A stretch of DNA of 64,000 nucleotides, taken from Pseudoxanthobacter soli DSM 19599. GTDB lineage: Bacteria > Pseudomonadota > Alphaproteobacteria > Rhizobiales > Segnochrobactraceae. The notes under the pieces are model-generated. The model made no database searches, was not told the origin of the DNA, and saw only the letters and a list, made by a program, of their open reading frames with translations. The stretch is from NCBI RefSeq assembly GCF_900148505.1, contig NZ_FRXO01000003.1, positions 434,001-498,000 on the forward strand, given 5' to 3'. How positions within the stretch are numbered: the first letter of the stretch is position 1; each line of letters starts with the position of its first letter. The position numbers were made by a program, and so were the translations under genes. Shown here piece after piece: positions 16,938 to 54,222 of this stretch.

Positions 16938-17825
16938 TCAGGAATTTTCCAGCCGACGGCTGATATCGTCGAGTTGCTCGAGCGACCGGTAGCGAATGCG
17001 CAGTTCCCCGGCGCCGTTCGGCTTATGGGTCAGCGACACAGCCAGCCCCAGCACCTCAGAAAGCCGCGTCTCCAGCGCCCGCGTATCGGCATCCTTCTCG
17101 GCGACGGCGCGCCCGACCGCTGCCACGGCCTGGGCAACCGGTGAGGCAGCCAAGGCCTCGGTATCGCGCACGGTCAAATCCTCGGCGATGACGCGGCGGG
17201 CAAGTGCCTCCGGATCGGGCGCCATCAGGATGGCACGGGCGTGACCGGCCGACAGCCGGCCGGCCACCACATGGTCTTTCACGGCATCGGGCAGCTTCAG
17301 GAGGCGCATCGTGTTGGCGACATGGCTGCGGCTCTTGCCGATGACGCCGGCGAGGTCGTTCTGGGTGTAGCCGAACTCGGCGATGAGCTGCTGGTAGCCG
17401 GCCGCTTCCTCGACCGCATTGAGATCGGCACGCTGGACGTTCTCGACGATGGCGATCTCGAGCGCCTCGCGATCGGAGACATCGCGCACGAGAACCGGGA
17501 CTTCGTGCAGGCCGGCCCGCTGGGCGGCCCGCCACCGGCGCTCGCCGGCGATGATCTCGTAGGCGTCCGCCTGGCCGGCCACCGCGCGCACCAGAATGGG
17601 CTGGAAGATGCCCCGCTCACGGATCGAGTTGGTCAGATCTTCCAGATCCTCCTCGGAGAACTGACGCCGGGGATTGCGCGGATTGGGCTTTACGAACGCC
17701 GTCGGCACCCGCTTCAAGCCACGTCCGCGGTCGCCGCGATCGGTGAAGCCGGCATCCGTGGAAACATCGCCCATCAATGCGGCGAGCCCGCGGCCCAGCC
17801 GCTTGCGTCCCTGCTCCTCCGCCAT
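16938..17825 (-). CDS. parB: Chromosome partitioning protein ParB
   Basis: CTP-dependent DNA clamp that loads at parS and spreads to organise and segregate the origin region. The 295-aa product has the N-terminal ParA-interacting segment (RKRLGRGLAALMGD), the ParB/Srx CTPase domain with IVRA-type strands and GERRWRAAQRAG (about 95-107), and ENVQRADLNAVEEA. A helix-turn-helix (YTQNDLAGVIGKSRSHVANTMRLLKLP) and a C-terminal dimerisation domain follow. It is downstream of parA with a 56-nt gap. Two parS sites lie 3.6 kb away at 21401 and 21447. Confidence 0.97.
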   Translation of the reverse strand: MAEEQGRKRLGRGLAALMGDVSTDAGFTDRGDRGRGLKRVPTAFVKPNPRNPRRQFSEEDLEDLTNSIRERGIFQPILVRAVAGQADAYEIIAGERRWRAAQRAGLHEVPVLVRDVSDREALEIAIVENVQRADLNAVEEAAGYQQLIAEFGYTQNDLAGVIGKSRSHVANTMRLLKLPDAVKDHVVAGRLSAGHARAILMAPDPEALARRVIAEDLTVRDTEALAASPVAQAVAAVGRAVAEKDADTRALETRLSEVLGLAVSLTHKPNGAGELRIRYRSLEQLDDISRRLENS

Positions 17826-17881: not shown

Positions 17882-18751
17882 TCAGGCGGCAACGGCACGG
17901 AACCGCTTCTCGCGCTGGATGATCTCCGAGGCGAGCCGCAGATAGGCCTGGCTGCCGGAGCAGCGGATATCGTAAAGCAGCGCTGGCTTGCCGTAGGACG
18001 GCGCCTCGCTCAACCTGACGTTGCGCGGAATCACGGTTTCATAAACCGTGTCGCCCATGGTCTCGCGCACGTCGGCCACGACCTGATTGGCGAGATTGTT
18101 GCGCGCATCGTACATGGTGAGAACGATGCCATGAATGGCGAGTTCGGCGTTCAGCGCCTGCTTGACCTGATCCACGGTCTGAAGCAGCTGGCTGAGACCC
18201 TCCAGCGCGAAGAACTCGCACTGCAGCGGCACCAGCACGCCATGGGCGGCACTCATGGCGTTGATGGTGAGCAGGTTCAGTGAAGGCGGGCAATCCACCA
18301 GCACGTAAGAATAGGCGAACTTGCCGGTCGCCTGGGCGGCGTGGGCGGCAATGGCATTCCGCAATCTGAAGGTGCGATCCCGCTCGTTGGCGATTTCGAG
18401 TTCGAGACCGAGCAGATCGAGCGTCGAAGCGGCGAGATGGAGCCGCGGGATCGCCGTTTCGATGATGGCGTCGCCGAGCGGCGCCTCGCCCACCAGCACG
18501 TCGTAGGTCGAGACCCGGCGGTCCTTGCGCTCGACGCCGAGGCCGGTCGAGGCATTGCCCTGGGGATCGAGATCGACGATCAGCACGCTCTCGCCGATTG
18601 CGGCGAGCGCGGTGCCAAGATTGATGGCCGTCGTCGTCTTGCCGACCCCACCCTTCTGGTTGGCGACCACCAGCACCCGAGGCATCGGGGCGGAGCCGCC
18701 GCGTGAGGCGGCCGGACGGGGATCGAGATGATTGCTGGCGGAGACACTCAT
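17882..18751 (-). CDS. parA: Chromosome partitioning ATPase ParA
   Basis: Deviant-Walker ATPase that moves ParB-parS complexes over the nucleoid. The 289-aa product carries the deviant Walker A NQKGGVGKTTTAINLG (about 31-46), Walker A' IVDLDPQGNASTG and Walker B YVLVDCPPSLNLLT. The start at 18751 overlaps the rsmG stop in an ATGA junction. A shorter start at the internal Met before PRVLVVANQKGG is possible; the upstream 22 residues are rich in Ser/Pro/Gly. The order rsmG-parA-parB is conserved near alphaproteobacterial origins. Confidence 0.97.
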   Translation of the reverse strand: MSVSASNHLDPRPAASRGGSAPMPRVLVVANQKGGVGKTTTAINLGTALAAIGESVLIVDLDPQGNASTGLGVERKDRRVSTYDVLVGEAPLGDAIIETAIPRLHLAASTLDLLGLELEIANERDRTFRLRNAIAAHAAQATGKFAYSYVLVDCPPSLNLLTINAMSAAHGVLVPLQCEFFALEGLSQLLQTVDQVKQALNAELAIHGIVLTMYDARNNLANQVVADVRETMGDTVYETVIPRNVRLSEAPSYGKPALLYDIRCSGSQAYLRLASEIIQREKRFRAVAA

Positions 18752-19443
18752 GGCTCAGGCACTCCCGGACGCCGTGGTGCGAGACTGCGCACGAGGGCGA
18801 TCCGGCCGTCCGGATCGGACCCACTCGGATGTTCTACCAGATCGAAGCTCCAATGGGCACGGGCATCGGCGACTTCCCGGCGGAGATCCCGCCCTTTGTG
18901 GAAAACGCCCACCGCACCGGCCTCGAAAAGCGGCGCGGCAAGCGCCAGCAGCTTGTCGAGCGGTGCCAGCGCGCGGGCCGAAACCGCCTCGACCGGCCCA
19001 CCTGCGACAACGTCCGGCCTTGTGACCACGTCCTCGATGCGCGCCGCCGAGACCGTCGCCGGAGCGCCGGTTTCGCGGATGGCGGCCTTGAGGAAGGCGG
19101 CCTTGCGGCCGTTCGATTCCACGAGATGGACGTGCGCGCCGGGCACGTCGGCGAGCAGGATCGCCACCACGATGCCGGGGAAGCCGGCGCCCGATCCGAG
19201 ATCCACCCAGCGGCGCGCCTCCGGCGCGGCGTCGAGCACCGCCGCGCTGTCGGCGACGTGGCGGGTCCAGACATGATCGAGCGTACCCGGCCCGACAAGG
19301 TTCTTGGCCTTCTGCCATGTCCGCAGCAACGCCACGTAGCGCGTGAGCCGATCCATCGCGGCAGGAGCGACGGGCCGCAGCGCGAGAAGAGCCTCCGGCC
19401 CCTCCCCCGGCGCACTTGTCTTCTGCTTCGGCTCAGGCGGCAT
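18748..19443 (-). CDS. rsmG: 16S rRNA (guanine-N7) methyltransferase RsmG
   Basis: Methylates G527 (E. coli numbering) of 16S rRNA using S-adenosylmethionine. The 231-aa product has the Rossmann SAM-binding motif [41 protein letters not shown] and a C-terminal FHKGRD segment. The ATG at 19443 overlaps the end of mnmG by 11 nt. The stop overlaps the parA start by 4 nt. The four genes mnmG-rsmG-parA-parB thus form one coupled unit. Confidence 0.96.
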
Positions 19444-21334
19444 CGCGGCCCCCTTCCGGGCGCCGGCGCAGATAGGCCAGCAACAGCGTGAGCGCGGCAG
19501 GCGTGACGCCTTCCACCCGCCCGGCCTGCGACAGAGTCTGGGGACGAACGCTCGCCAGCCTCTGCTTCACCTCGTTCGAGAGGCCCGTGATCGCCGCATA
19601 ATCGAGGTCGACCGGCAACGCGACGCCGGCGTCGCGCTTCAGCGCCGCGACGTCCGCGGCCTGACGATCGAGATAGACGGCGTAGCGCGCATCGGTCTCG
19701 ACCGTGGCAGCGATGGCAGGCGGCAGATCGCCGAGCTCCGGCCAGACGGCAACGAGCCGTGCCAAATCGATATCGGGGAAGCTCAGGAGATCGAACGCTG
19801 TGCGGCGCACGCCATCATGATTGAGCGCGAGCCCGTGACGCGCCGCTTCCTGGGGCGTCAGGCTGAGGGACTTCAGCCAGACCCGCGCCGCCTCCAACGC
19901 GGCGCGGCGGCGATCGAAGGCCGCGGCACGTTCCGTGCCGACGAGCCCGGTCCGGAGGCCGAGCGGGGTCAGCCGCTCGTCGGCATTATCCGCCCGGAGT
20001 TTCAGCCGGAACTCCGCCCGCGAGGTAAACATGCGGTAGGGCTCGGTGATGCCGCGGGTAACGAGATCATCGACCATGACGCCGAGATAGGCGTCCTCCC
20101 GGCCGATGACCACAGGATCAGACCCGCCCGCCACACGGGCGGCGTTGAGGCCCGCCAGCAGACCCTGCGCCGCCGCCTCCTCATAACCCGTAGTGCCGTT
20201 GATCTGCCCCGCCAGGAACAGCCCGGCGCAGCGCTTGGTCTCAAGAGCGGGCGTCAGCTCCGTCGGATCGACGTGGGTATATTCGATGGCATAGCCGGGC
20301 CGCAGGATCTCCGCCCGCTCCAGCCCGGGGATCGTGGCGATCAGCGCCCGCTGGGCATCTTCCGGCAGCGAGGTCGAGATGCCGTTCGGATAGACCGTAT
20401 GGTCGTCGAGGCCTTCGGGCTCGAGAAAGATCTGGTGGCCGTCGCGATCGCCGAAACGCACGATCTTGTCTTCGATGGACGGGCAGTAGCGGGGCCCGCG
20501 GCTGGAAATCTCGCCCGAGTACATCGCCGAGCGATGCAGATGAGTGCGGATGACCGAATGGGTCTCGGCCGTCGTGCGGGTGACGTGGCAGACGACCTGA
20601 GGCGTGGTGATCGACGCCGTCAGGGCCGAGAACGGCTCCGGAGGATCGTCGCCCGGCTGGACGTCGAGACCGGCCTTGTCGATGGTGCGGCCATCGATGC
20701 GCGGCGGCGTGCCGGTCTTCAGCCGGCCGAGACGCAGGCCGATGCGGCCGAGGGCATCGCCGAGCCCGATAGCCGGCGGCTCGCCCATCCGGCCCGCCGG
20801 CATCTTGACGTCGCCGATGTGGATCAGTCCGTCGAGGAACGTGCCCGTGGTCACGACAGCCGCGCCGGTCGTCAGCGTCCGGCCATCACGCAACACCACG
20901 GCGGAAAGACGACCTTGGGAAACCACGAGATCGACGGCTTCGCCCTGAACGATCTCGAGCCCGGACACGGCCGTGATCGCCGCCTGCATCGCCGCGCGGT
21001 AGAGCTTGCGATCGGCCTGTGCGCGCGGCCCTTGGACGGCCGGCCCTTTACGGCGATTGAGAACGCGGAACTGGATGCCGCCCTGGTCCGCGACGCGTGC
21101 CATGAGGCCGTCCAGCGCATCGATCTCGCGGACGAGATGGCCCTTGCCAAGACCGCCGATCGCCGGGTTGCACGACATCACGCCGATGGTCGCCGCATCC
21201 TGCGTGACGAGAGCCACCCGGGCGCCCACCCGCGCGGCGGCCGCGGCGGCCTCCGAGCCGGCGTGCCCGCCACCAATCACCACGACATCGTACCGTCGCT
21301 GCACGGCGACCTCCGCATCCTCGATGTTCTGCAT
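19433..21334 (-). CDS. mnmG: tRNA uridine-5-carboxymethylaminomethyl modification enzyme MnmG
   Basis: FAD/NADH-binding half of the MnmEG complex, which installs cmnm5U at the wobble position of certain tRNAs. The 633-aa product opens with the dinucleotide-binding motif [19 protein letters not shown]. It contains [47 protein letters not shown] and [17 protein letters not shown], and a C-terminal helical MnmE-binding domain. Length is normal. The promoter should lie in 21335-21530, the spacer that also carries both parS sites. Its partner mnmE is the next gene upstream on the same strand. Confidence 0.97.
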
Positions 21335-21400
21335 GGCTTCGTCTTACAGCATCGGCGGCCAAAGCGCGACGCCGTTTTCCCTGCGCCGCGGAGGCGCGTG

Positions 21401-21416
21401 TGTTTCACGTGAAACA
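21401..21416. other. parS site 1
   Basis: TGTTTCACGTGAAACA, a perfect 16-bp palindrome identical to the widely conserved bacterial parS consensus bound by chromosomal ParB. It lies 67 bp upstream of the mnmG start codon and about 3.6 kb from parB. Confidence 0.96.
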
Positions 21417-21446
21417 TGACGTACAGTCCGCATCGGCGAGACGGAT

Positions 21447-21462
21447 TGTTTCACGTGAAACA
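21447..21462. other. parS site 2
   Basis: A second perfect TGTTTCACGTGAAACA, 46 bp centre-to-centre from site 1. Together they form a double ParB-loading site in the mnmG-mnmE spacer. Confidence 0.96.
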
Positions 21463-21530
21463 TCGGGGCAAACACCGCACCTTGGTGAATGGTCCCTTAA
21501 CGTGTTCCTGACAATCGTCCGGACCCGCCT

Positions 21531-22919
21531 TCACTTTCCGATGCAGAACGACGAGAAGATCCGCCCGAGCACCGCCTCGACGCCGACGGCGCCGACCACG
21601 CGGCCAAGCGCATCCCCGGCGCGGCGCAGTTCCTCGGCGCGCAGTTCGGGCGCAATGAAGCCGGCCATCGTCGCCCGGTCGAGACAGGCCACGGCATCCT
21701 CGATCGCAGCACGGTGGCGCGCGCGGGTGACCAACGCGTCCTCGCCGCCCTTCAGGCTCTGCGCGGCCGCCGCGCCGATCGCGGCAACGAGATCGCCGAT
21801 CCCCTCCCCGCTGCTGACGGAGATCCGCCCGGGAACGCCAGCCGCGCCGTCCGCCGATGATCCCTCTACGGGGGACCGAAGCTCATGGCCCGGTTCCAGG
21901 TCCGCCTTGGTCCGGATCCGCCAGAGTGATCCCCCGAGCTCCCCCGGTGGCTCCAGCGCCGTTTCGTCCGGCGGGTCGAGCCACACCACGAGATCCGCAT
22001 CGCGGCCGCGGCTCAGGGCGCGGCGGATGCCTTCGCGCTCGGCCTCGCCCGCCGTCTCCCGCAGGCCGGCCGTATCCGCAACGGTCACGGGGTAGCCGCC
22101 GAGATCGAGATGTACCTCGATCACGTCCCGGGTCGTCCCCGCCTCCGCCGTGACTATGGCGACCTCGCGCGAAGCCAGCGCGTTCATCAGGCTCGACTTG
22201 CCCGCGTTCGGCGGCCCCATCAGCGCGACCTGGAAGCCGTCCCGCAGCCGCTCACCCCGGCCGGCATCGGCGAGCGCCACCGCGAGCGCCGAGCGCAGCC
22301 CTGCCGCCTCGGCGATCGCCTGTTGCTCCGCCACTTCGGCGACATCGGCCTCGTCGGAGAAGTCGAGACTCGCCTCGAGCAGCGCGCGGGCCTCGATCAG
22401 GCGGCTGCGCCAGTCTGCGATGCGGGAGGACAGGGCGCCGCCGGCCTGGGCAAGCGCCTGCACGCGCTGGGCCTCGGTTTCGGCGGCAAGGAGATCAGCG
22501 AGCCCTTCCACGGCCGCGAGGTCCATCCTGCCCGCGAGGAAGGCGCGGCGGGTGAACTCTCCAGGTTCGGCCGGGCGCGCGAACGCCGCCGGGCCAGAGG
22601 CCAGTTCGGCGATGACGGCGGCGACGACGGCGCGGCCGCCGTGGAGATGCAGTTCCGCCATATCCTCGCCGGTCGCCGTGCCCGGCCCCGGTAGCCAGAG
22701 CACCAGCGCCCTGTCGAGCGGCGCACCGTCCGAGCGGCGCACAAGACGGCGCAGCACAGCCCGACGGGGCGGCGGCAGGCGCCCCCCGCACAGCGCGGCG
22801 AGTGCAGGCCCCGCATTCGGCCCCGACAGCCGGACCACCGCGACCGCCGCCGGCAGGGCGCCGCTGGACAGGGCGACGATGGTGTCGCCGGCGACGGTGT
22901 CGCTCGGAAGGGTCTGCAT
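21531..22919 (-). CDS. mnmE: tRNA modification GTPase MnmE
   Basis: GTPase half of the MnmEG wobble-uridine complex. The 462-aa product has the N-terminal formyl-THF-binding TrmE domain (DTIVALSSGALPAAVAVVRLSG, about 10-125). The helical domain is interrupted by a G domain with G1 GPPNAGKSS, G2 AGTTRDVIE, G3 DTAGLRET and G4 TKAD. The invariant C-terminal FCIGK motif ends the protein, so it is intact. It is followed by the parS spacer and then mnmG. Confidence 0.97.
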   Translation of the reverse strand: MQTLPSDTVAGDTIVALSSGALPAAVAVVRLSGPNAGPALAALCGGRLPPPRRAVLRRLVRRSDGAPLDRALVLWLPGPGTATGEDMAELHLHGGRAVVAAVIAELASGPAAFARPAEPGEFTRRAFLAGRMDLAAVEGLADLLAAETEAQRVQALAQAGGALSSRIADWRSRLIEARALLEASLDFSDEADVAEVAEQQAIAEAAGLRSALAVALADAGRGERLRDGFQVALMGPPNAGKSSLMNALASREVAIVTAEAGTTRDVIEVHLDLGGYPVTVADTAGLRETAGEAEREGIRRALSRGRDADLVVWLDPPDETALEPPGELGGSLWRIRTKADLEPGHELRSPVEGSSADGAAGVPGRISVSSGEGIGDLVAAIGAAAAQSLKGGEDALVTRARHRAAIEDAVACLDRATMAGFIAPELRAEELRRAGDALGRVVGAVGVEAVLGRIFSSFCIGK

Positions 22920-28840: not shown

Positions 28841-29923
28841 TCAGGCCCGCCGAACGCGGGCGAGCATCCGCTCGACGTGCTCGATCGGGGTCTCCGGCAG
28901 GATGCCATGGCCGAGATTGAACACGAACGGCCCGCCCGAGAATGCCGACAGGATCGCCTCGACGCCCTCGTCCAGGGCCCGGCCGCCCGCGACGAGGCGC
29001 AGCGGATCGAGATTTCCCTGAATGGTCGCCACGGCCTGCAACGCCCTGCCCCGCTCGAGCGACACCGACCAGTCTAGCCCGACGGCATCGACGCCGGTTT
29101 GCTGCACGAACCCCTCGAGCCGCGTGCCGGCGCCGCGCGGAAAGCCGATGATGCGGGCGCCGGGAACCGCGGACCGCACGCGCTGCACGATCTCCCGCAT
29201 CGGCTCGGTCGTCCAGCGCGCGAAGCCGTCGGTGTCGAGCGGCCCGGCCCAGCTGTCGAAAACCTGCACCGCGTCCGCGCCGGCCGCGAACTGCGCGACG
29301 AGATGGGACGAGACCGCCTCGACGAGAACGTCGATCAGGCGGCGGAAGCCGTCGGGGTCACGATAGGCGGCGAGCCGGGCGAACGCCTGATCCGGCGAGC
29401 CACGCCCCGCCACCATATAGGTCGCCAGCGTCCAGGGAGCCCCGGCAAAGCCGATCAGGGCCGTCTCCGGGGGGAGATCCGCCCTCACCCGCGAAATCGC
29501 TTCGTAGACCGGTTCAAGGTGCCCGGCGACGCGACCGAGATCGAGACCGCCGACGGCATCGAGCGGCAGCGGATCGAGCCGAGGTCCCTCGCCCTCCATG
29601 AAGGCGACCGGCTGGCCGAGACCATCGGGAATGACGAGGATGTCGGAAAAGATGATGGCCGCATCGAAGCCGAACCGGCGGATCGGCTGCAACGTGGCCT
29701 CTGTGGCGAGATCCGGCCGGTAGCAGAAATCGAGGAACGATCGGGCCTCGCTGCGGATCGCCCGGTATTCCGGGAGATAGCGCCCGGCCTGCCGCATCAT
29801 CCAGACGGGGGGAATGTCCGTCCTTTCGCCGGCGAGCGCCGCCATGAAGCGGGAGGAAGCCGCTCGCGATGCGACCTTCTCCTGGCCCCTTTCCGGTTCC
29901 CCGGCTTTTCCACCCGTCTCCAT
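28841..29923 (-). CDS. hemE: Uroporphyrinogen decarboxylase
   Basis: Converts uroporphyrinogen III to coproporphyrinogen III in heme synthesis. The 360-aa product has the family motifs [17 protein letters not shown], the catalytic-Asp segment [44 protein letters not shown] and [15 protein letters not shown]. The N-terminus is extended by about 20 polar residues. The start codon lies only 8 nt from the first of three GANTC sites at the edge of the replication origin, so its promoter and the origin overlap, as in Caulobacter. Confidence 0.97.
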
Positions 29924-29930
29924 AAAGAGA

Positions 29931-29959
29931 GAATCCTTGAATCAAGGGATTGTTGATTC
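29931..29959. promoter_or_regulatory. Cluster of three GANTC (CcrM) methylation sites
   Basis: GAATC at 29931-29935, GAATC at 29939-29943 and GATTC at 29955-29959. GANTC is the target of the cell-cycle-regulated methyltransferase CcrM in alphaproteobacteria. The cluster covers the hemE leader and the IHF site. Confidence 0.75.
29940..29952 (+). promoter_or_regulatory. IHF-binding consensus at the origin
   Basis: AATCAAGGGATTG matches WATCAANNNNTTR at every fixed position. IHF bends DNA at bacterial origins. The site shares bases with the second GANTC motif. Confidence 0.65.
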
Positions 29960-29989
29960 TGTTTGGAGGTGGATTACCGGGATTATCGA

Positions 29990-29998
29990 TCATCCACA
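29990..29998 (+). promoter_or_regulatory. DnaA-like box
   Basis: TCATCCACA differs at one position from TTATCCACA and is close to the Caulobacter G-box TGATCCACA. Weaker relatives are TTTTCCACG (30020-30028) and, on the minus strand, CGATCCACA (30149-30157). Confidence 0.6.
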
Positions 29999-30111
29999 AT
30001 CGGACGCGGCGTCACGGGCTTTTCCACGGCGCAGGCGGAGATCCGGGCTTTTCGTGGAGCAGCCTTTGGAAATCCGGATTATGGTTCCTTTTCAAGGTGT
30101 TGCCATATTCC

Positions 30112-30126
30112 TTAACAAAAGGTTAA
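30112..30126 (+). promoter_or_regulatory. CtrA box at the origin
   Basis: TTAACAAAAGGTTAA is a perfect TTAA-N7-TTAA match to the CtrA consensus. In Caulobacter, phosphorylated CtrA bound to such boxes blocks replication initiation. It lies in the AT-richest part of the spacer. Confidence 0.75.
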
Positions 30127-30383
30127 ACAGGCATTGCCGTGGATGACGTGTGGATCGTCCGGGACCGCGCAAATCGTCCACGGAGTTCGGGGGGCGTGGA
30201 CGGATCCGTCCGTCGGCAGCTGATCTGTTGATTGATCGGGACGGAATTGCATGATGAACGGCCGATCCGTTTCGCCGGCCGGTACCGTCCACACATCTTA
30301 ACAGGGCTGGGGACAACGCGCGGGGCCGGCCTGCCGAAGCCGGCGGTTTCCGTGAGGTCGCAGGCCGGAAAGGCGCAGACAGG

Positions 30384-31223
30384 GTGCCGACGTTCTTTCA
30401 TCTCCATCTCGTGTCGGATTCGACGGGCGAGACGCTTTCCACCGTCGCCCGCGCGGCCATCGTCCGTTACGACGACGTGGAGGCGATCGAGCACGTCCAT
30501 CCGCTGATCCGCTCCGACCGCCAGCTCGACAAAGTGCTTTCGGCCATCGAACAGGCGCCGGGAATGGTGCTGTTCACCCTCGTGAACGAGAAGATGGCCG
30601 AGCGCGTCGAACGGTTCTGCCAGGAACTCGGGCTTCCTTCCGCCAACGTGCTCGACCCTGTCGTGCGGCTGATGCAGTCCTATCTGAACCTGCCGGTCGC
30701 CCCGCGTGTTGGCGGGCAGCACCAGCTCGACACCGACTATTTCCGCCGCATCGACGCGCTGAACTACGTGCTGATGCACGACGACGGCGTGCTGCCGGAT
30801 GACATCGAGCAGGCCGAGGTGATCCTCGTCGGCGTCAGCCGCACCTCCAAGACGCCGACTTGCATCTATCTCGCCAACCGCGGTGTGAAGGCGATCAACA
30901 TTCCGATCGTGCCGGGCGTGCCGCTGCCGCGGCGGTTGTTCGAGGCTGAAAACCCATTGGTCGTCGCCCTCGTGGCCAGCCCCGAGCGCATCGCCCAGAT
31001 CCGCGAGCACCGCCTGCTGACGCTCAACGCCAAGCCCGACAATGCGGCCTATGTCGACCGCCGCGCCATCGCGGAGGAGATCGCGCTGACCCGGCGCATC
31101 TGCGCGGAACACCGCTGGCCCATCATCGACGTCACGCGTCGCTCGATCGAGGAAACGGCCGCCGCCATCATGGCGCTCGCCAAGCAGCGCCGGGAACAGT
31201 TGCGCGAGCAGGGCATCGGCTGA
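30384..31223 (+). CDS. PPSR-type regulatory protein (DUF299, bifunctional kinase/pyrophosphorylase)
   Basis: DUF299 proteins phosphorylate and dephosphorylate a partner dikinase, either pyruvate phosphate dikinase or PEP synthetase, using ADP and inorganic phosphate. The 279-aa product starts with GTG at 30384 (CAGACAGG upstream). It has FHLHLVSDSTGETLSTVARA, the P-loop-like VGVSRTSKTPTCIYLANRG (about 150-168), NIPIVPGVPLP and a C-terminal IDVTRRSIEETAAAI. Length is usual. Which dikinase it controls cannot be told here. It is the first gene rightwards from the origin. Confidence 0.94.
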   Translation: MPTFFHLHLVSDSTGETLSTVARAAIVRYDDVEAIEHVHPLIRSDRQLDKVLSAIEQAPGMVLFTLVNEKMAERVERFCQELGLPSANVLDPVVRLMQSYLNLPVAPRVGGQHQLDTDYFRRIDALNYVLMHDDGVLPDDIEQAEVILVGVSRTSKTPTCIYLANRGVKAINIPIVPGVPLPRRLFEAENPLVVALVASPERIAQIREHRLLTLNAKPDNAAYVDRRAIAEEIALTRRICAEHRWPIIDVTRRSIEETAAAIMALAKQRREQLREQGIG

Positions 31224-53532: not shown

Positions 53533-54222
53533 CTAACGGAGATCGCAACGCAAGACAAGCGCATGTCCCTGTCCGGCAGCATGGGCATAATAGCCCGGCC
53601 GTTGCCCGACCTGAACGAAGCCGCGCCGGCGATAAACAGCCAGCGCGGGCGCATTTTGCGTGTCCACCTCCAGAAAGACGCAGGCGACGCCGTCCACATA
53701 GAGCCGGCGCAGCGCCGCATCGGTCAGGAGCCCGCCGATGCCCGCGCCGCGATGATGGGGATGGACCGCGATGGTCAGCACCTCGGCCTCGCCGGCCACC
53801 GACCGCATCATGATGAAGCCGATCGGCCGGCGGGTTCCGTAGGGCGTGCCGCGCCGCGCGACGAGGCAGAACACCCCCGCGCCTCCCATCAGGGCCGCGA
53901 TCTCGTCCTCGCTCCAGGTCTGCGAGAAAGACGCCGCGTGGATGTCGGCGAGATCGGGAAGGTCGGCGTCCTCCGCCGCCTCGATCACCGGTTCGCGGGC
54001 GAAACGCCAGTCCGCGAACGACCAGAGCCCGGTCTGGCCGAGATCCGCCCACCACCATCCGGCCGGGGCGGGATCGACGGGATCCGAGGCACGCGTGGCA
54101 GAGGGCGCGGACCAGTAATCCCACGTCAGCATCGGCCAGGAGGACGCCGACCACGACAGCGGCGACCAGGACGACGTCTTCCACCACGGGCCTGAAGGCG
54201 GCGGGGGCGATTCGTCTGCCAT
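53533..54222 (-). CDS. rimI: RimI-type GNAT N-acetyltransferase with Trp-rich N-terminal extension
   Basis: Acetyltransferase of the RimI family, typically modifying the N-terminal Ala of ribosomal protein S18. The GNAT domain is in the C-terminal two thirds (VIEAAEDADLPDLADIHAASFSQTWSEDE...; acetyl-CoA loop VLTIAVHPHHRGAGIGGLLT; LEVDTQNAPALAVYRRRGFVQVGQRPGYY). From the ATG at 54222 (GGAG upstream) the product is 229 aa. That is about 70 longer than standard RimI, because of an N-terminal segment with 12 tryptophans in the first 74 residues. Beside tsaB, as usual. A downstream start that omits the extension is possible but I see no better ribosome site. Confidence 0.87.
   Translation of the reverse strand: MADESPPPPSGPWWKTSSWSPLSWSASSWPMLTWDYWSAPSATRASDPVDPAPAGWWWADLGQTGLWSFADWRFAREPVIEAAEDADLPDLADIHAASFSQTWSEDEIAALMGGAGVFCLVARRGTPYGTRRPIGFIMMRSVAGEAEVLTIAVHPHHRGAGIGGLLTDAALRRLYVDGVACVFLEVDTQNAPALAVYRRRGFVQVGQRPGYYAHAAGQGHALVLRCDLR

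Follow-up and report, generated by a model that had tools for sequence, protein, structure and literature searches.

Twin perfect parS sites between mnmE and mnmG as the probable chromosomal centromere of a Hyphomicrobiales member whose rsmG lacks the parS site of most relatives

We analysed a stretch of 64,000 nucleotides from Pseudoxanthobacter soli, here called the window, with a focus on two identical palindromes between mnmE and mnmG. The features needed for the argument are as follows.

16938..17825, minus strand: parB, ParB/Spo0J family, with ParB_N, HTH_ParB and ParB_C domains
17882..18751, minus strand: parA, ParA/Soj ATPase (AAA_31 186.5 bits, CbiA 105.5 bits)
18748..19443, minus strand: rsmG (gidB), without a VSRET-encoding parS
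19433..21334, minus strand: mnmG (gidA) (TIGR00136 784.7 bits, cut-off 524.85)
21335..21530, no strand: mnmE-mnmG intergenic spacer of 196 bp, which houses both parS sites
21401..21416, no strand: parS site nearer mnmG, TGTTTCACGTGAAACA, perfect 16-bp palindrome, 0 mismatches
21447..21462, no strand: parS site nearer mnmE, TGTTTCACGTGAAACA, perfect 16-bp palindrome, 0 mismatches
21531..22919, minus strand: mnmE, GTPase of tRNA uridine-5-carboxymethylaminomethyl(34) synthesis (NF003661 537.8 bits, cut-off 380)
28841-29923, minus strand: hemE, flanking the likely oriC
29924..30383, no strand: gap between hemE and the kinase-pyrophosphorylase gene, likely oriC
30384-31223, plus strand: kinase-pyrophosphorylase (Kinase-PPPase) gene, flanking the likely oriC

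Read along the minus strand, the order is the kinase-pyrophosphorylase gene, an AT-rich gap, hemE, a UPF0093 gene, rho, mnmE, the parS pair, mnmG, rsmG, parA and parB. The first parS site follows the end of mnmE by 68 bp, and mnmG starts 66 and 112 bp downstream of the two sites. The last four genes are close-packed: mnmG overlaps rsmG by 11 bp and rsmG overlaps parA by 4 bp, which makes a single mnmG-rsmG-parA-parB transcript plausible, and a 56-bp gap precedes parB. DnaA-box-like 9-mers are grouped most densely in the gap at 29924-30383, where the 300 bp of highest AT content in the window also lie; these features point to the gap as the likely oriC. In Caulobacter, too, the origin adjoins hemE. 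The nearer parS site lies 8.46 kb from this gap. Thus, the distance of 8.5 kb from the origin given in an earlier note on this DNA holds as a distance to the hemE gap, while the gap itself is the likely rather than the observed origin. In relatives of the Bosea and Brucella types, near-parS sequences (TGTTTCACGTGAATCA/C) stand just up- or downstream of hemE, in the vicinity of the likely oriC (L041:1109-1124, L063:2357-2372); a counterpart was absent from the window at ≤3 mismatches.

Both 16-mers are perfect copies of the palindromic 16-bp parS consensus TGTTNCACGTGAAACA, as quoted in PMC4409726. They are spaced 46 bp start to start, which leaves 30 bp between them. The earlier description of twin perfect sites 46 bp apart was borne out when counted in this way, as was its figure of 3.6 kb from parB (3.58 kb from the parB edge to the nearest site). 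No further parS-like site was found in the 64-kb window at ≤3 mismatches, and 100 dinucleotide shuffles of the window gave a mean of 0.03 sites at that threshold. The earlier note had proposed a genome-wide search with up to two mismatches and had named many equally good sites over the chromosome as the outcome that would speak against its reading. We ran this search with TGTTTCACGTGAAACA, and it returned both spacer copies only (5,162,826 bases, 27 contigs, completeness 100), while the reversed pattern gave 0 matches. This uniqueness refers to the assembled sequence at ≤2 mismatches, the 3-mismatch search having covered the window; a parS in an unassembled gap between the 27 contigs would escape it. 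By an independent-base estimate, about 9e-5 perfect copies are expected per genome. As a separate observation, the hexamer CACGTG is scarce in the window (1-64000): shuffles predict 16 occurrences, whereas 4 were observed, two of these being the parS cores.

We next compared the locus with those of relatives. Of 80 loci gathered with ParB, 53 alphaproteobacterial ones were kept (L038-L089, L109), and 27 were dropped because they came from other phyla, lay on short contigs or, in one case, on a rickettsial contig without mnmG. We added 20 loci of the order (L118-L137), a biased set chosen for a perfect site, which together with the window made 74 loci. A parS at the boundary of mnmE and mnmG is a recurrent feature of these alphaproteobacterial loci. 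In the 71 loci with assignable positions for both genes, the number of spacer sites at ≤2 mismatches was 0 in 18, 1 in 26, 2 in 21, 3 in 4, 4 in 1 and 5 in 1. Eight of the 18 zero-site loci belong to Rhodobacterales and were missed by the counting rule because their site at the junction overlaps with the aligned start of mnmG; in another eight, of the Bosea type, the spacer measures 24-57 bp, and the remaining two are others. In the loci of 40 relatives we counted 111 parS matches, compared with 1 in total for 20 shuffled palindromes of the same composition. In 17 of the 71 loci, the first spacer site starts on the TGA stop codon of mnmE, reading TGATTCACGTGAAACA or a close variant (for example L061:6288-6303, L065:6425-6440 and L109:6460-6475).

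The position of the pair ahead of the close-packed mnmG-rsmG-parA-parB genes raises the possibility of a dual-purpose element, at which loaded ParB would also repress or tune these genes and so feed back on ParA and ParB levels, an effect that the earlier note had considered. Precedents exist: in Pseudomonas aeruginosa, ParB is described as repressing genes that adjoin the intergenic parS3 and parS4 sites (PMC7022226), and in Mycobacterium bovis BCG one parS overlaps the -10 element of a promoter upstream of gidB, for which regulation was proposed (PMC2346475). As described there, BCG and M. smegmatis share with the window two parS sites upstream of parB, one of them beside gidB; however, the second BCG site lies in parA. 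Against such a role, a consensus scan of 21200-21700 detected no sigma-70-like promoter, other promoter types being outside the scan. Moreover, little besides the parS sites is conserved in the spacer across three genomes of the family, whose pairs are spaced by 46, 37 and 250 bp; distances to mnmG vary widely among relatives, and the eight Bosea-type loci manage without any spacer site. Owing to the precedents, control of the operon by ParB stays a reasonable guess, albeit an unlikely one.

The parB product is well placed to act on the pair. It matches the N-terminal, helix-turn-helix and dimerisation domains (PF02195, PF17762 and PF23552) above cut-off and is the one strong chromosomal ParB of the genome (HTH_ParB 110.9 bits). 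Elsewhere in the genome, contig C1 carries a weak second match to HTH_ParB (26.9 bits; G000:C1:847494-847736, minus strand) in an open frame of 737 aa. A GERRWR sequence at residue 94 is of the GERRxR type, a motif that presumably binds CTP, and ENVQR is also present. The closest solved structures are 6t1f and 7bm8 (E 7e-75; best chain 6t1f_A), which we take to be Caulobacter ParB. Of the ten ParB-interface positions named in PMC7383237, nine are identical between the two proteins (Q162, G170, K171, S172, R173, N178, T179, G201 and R204); the tenth is K for Caulobacter A184, at a position called variable among ParBs in that work. The numbering is that of Caulobacter; we verified its offset of 10 manually, using the GERR box and these residues.

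These residues also bear on whether the palindromes might instead be bound by Noc or act as operators for a different regulator. A 16-mer palindrome could in principle serve other proteins, and the Noc model TIGR04285 does match this ParB at 216 bits; that score is nevertheless below the cut-off of 315. According to PMC7383237, R173 and G201 mark parS preference, while Noc carries Q173, K179, K184 and R201. The window protein has R, T, K and G at 173, 179, 184 and 201 and thus differs from the Q173 and R201 of Noc. We therefore rejected nucleoid occlusion at Noc sites, on the family score together with the specificity residues, and regard this identity as very improbable. An origin of the pair by chance is refuted by the many genomes that have parS at this very junction, in line with the small expectations from shuffles and base composition given above.

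We thus read the pair as the chromosomal parS centromere of an ordinary ParABS system, with a probability of roughly 0.94; the bacterium itself is placed in the Hyphomicrobiales through its named relatives. Established directly are the sites, their uniqueness in the assembled genome, the cognate parA and parB, the contact and CTP motifs of ParB, an SMC gene (820.6 bits with in-frame neighbours, cut-off 567.35) and the recurrence in relatives. The earlier note had suggested that the pair may be the main ParB-loading centre. Because no other parS was found in the assembled genome at ≤2 mismatches and the only strong ParB keeps the contact residues, this can be put more strongly: judged from sequence, the pair is almost certainly the ParB-loading centromere of the chromosome and apparently its sole parS centromere. 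A model for MipZ gave weak matches only (best 34.9 bits), and the same model matches in 14 of 14 control genomes.

Binding, clamp sliding, ParA-driven segregation and SMC loading are carried over from established ParABS biology. Each palindrome would be bound by ParB dimers through the helix-turn-helix domain; bound ParB would then shut into a CTP-bound clamp and slide onto adjacent DNA, freeing the site for reloading; for relatives, clamp loading by CTP is reported to be established. Once replication has taken place, the ParA ATPase would separate the resulting ParB-DNA complex near oriC, at which SMC would also be loaded. With their 46-bp spacing, the twin sites may double loading at one spot and provide redundancy. 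For comparison, a review describes a single oriC-proximal parS as sufficient in P. aeruginosa, and Caulobacter ParB is reported to spread about 2 kb from one site when expressed in E. coli (PMC5815017).

A similar plan is described for Hyphomonas neptunium, in which two consensus parS sites likewise precede parAB, at about 7 kb from hemE; there, ParB binding was demonstrated in vitro (PMC6650430), whereas binding in the window is predicted from sequence. Caulobacter crescentus resembles the window in the distance of its parS cluster from ori (about 8 kb) and in the DNA-contact residues of its ParB family, but its strong sites number at least five within 5 kb and are described as intragenic, as compared to two in the window, both intergenic (PMC5815017). 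The authors of the same source were unable to delete individual Caulobacter sites, these being in essential or costly genes. Two sites in one short non-coding spacer would thus offer a cleaner system than Caulobacter in which to determine the required number of parS sites. In addition, a poorly sampled family, represented here by the three genomes compared, gains a defined centromere and a simple, testable prediction of the place at which ParB loads.

Most relatives carry a further site on the other side of mnmG. We found a parS within the rsmG coding sequence in 71 of the 74 alphaproteobacterial loci, and in 53 of 53 when neither the window nor the biased set of 20 was counted. In 70 of the 74 the RsmG frame reads V-S-R-E-T, with 71 occurrences, all spelled GTTTCACGTGAAAC followed by A or G; the remaining site-bearing locus, L121, has VSRES instead, spelled GTTTCACGTGAATC. 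The window's only non-parS VSRET, in an open frame at 53636 on the plus strand, is in contrast spelled GTGAGCCGGGAGACG, with codons of the kind favoured by GC-rich genomes. The invariant codons in rsmG as compared to this spelling point to the DNA sequence, and not the peptide alone, as what is kept. Thus, in most relatives a centromere sequence apparently dictates part of an rRNA methyltransferase. The site mostly lies near codon 24 of rsmG (for example L041:8542-8557); VSRET is found further along, at NLVSRETL, in L128, L131 and L132, and further still in L125 and L126. These shifted positions suggest that the site is able to move within rsmG.

The site is missing from rsmG in three loci: the window, which has VAPAA at that place, L119 of G002, a genome of the sister genus, and L129. 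A degenerate third site at the window's mnmG-rsmG junction was sought, and none was found at ≤3 mismatches. The third genome of the family, G001, has two spacer sites as well as the rsmG site. In a tree of MnmE and MnmG from 23 loci, the window and G002 were grouped (100/95) and G001 fell outside them (99/98). As G001 carries both stations, the simplest history would be a single loss of the rsmG site in the common ancestor of G002 and the window, after the spacer pair had already arisen. We consider it somewhat more probable than its opposite that Hyphomicrobiales and Rhodobacterales share a two-station plan around mnmG, with at least one intergenic site after mnmE and one in rsmG fixing a codon-locked VSRET, and that the lineage of the window and G002 lost the coding station, which freed RsmG and left ParB loading to one 62-bp element. 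Because the rsmG-embedded site is lost here, all strong ParB loading in the genome would be expected to start from the mnmE-mnmG spacer.

A parS inside gidB/rsmG is not new in itself, given the reports from Thermus thermophilus and M. smegmatis. In M. smegmatis, a parS is described at the 5' end of gidB (PMC2346475). The parSc of T. thermophilus adjoins parAB, as in the window; it is a single site inside gidB, like that of most relatives compared, whereas the window has lost its gidB/rsmG site (PMC4409726). For Alphaproteobacteria, a literature search by title or abstract start, with subscription journals mostly outside its reach, found no account of an rsmG-embedded parS. Overall, the arrangement is ordinary and well understood, with the loss of the rsmG site as a small evolutionary twist.

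The twin layout itself is common in the order: 87 of 397 genomes (31 of 141 genera) contain a pair of GWTTCACGTGAAAC cores at a distance of 30-60 bp, as counted genome-wide, irrespective of location in the mnmE-mnmG spacer. Distances of 61-91 bp occur in 34 of the 397 genomes (13 genera) and of 14-29 bp in 15 (10 genera). Since the 61-91 bp class includes skip pairs from arrays of at least three sites and spacer length limits long distances, we draw no spacing rule from these counts. Perfect 16-mers were found in 64 of 121 genomes. By genus median, the pairs showed no helical phasing at 10.5 bp (p ~0.25; 88 pairs from all 31 genera, without further pairs of genera g72 and g83); a pooled value of p ~0.004 was set aside because it treats related genomes as independent. 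Thus, the 46-bp spacing has no special phase. Genomes of genus g72 contain four-site parS-like arrays with steps of about 39-60 bp and mostly a GATTCACGTGAAAC core, for example at G148:C11:314086-314227.
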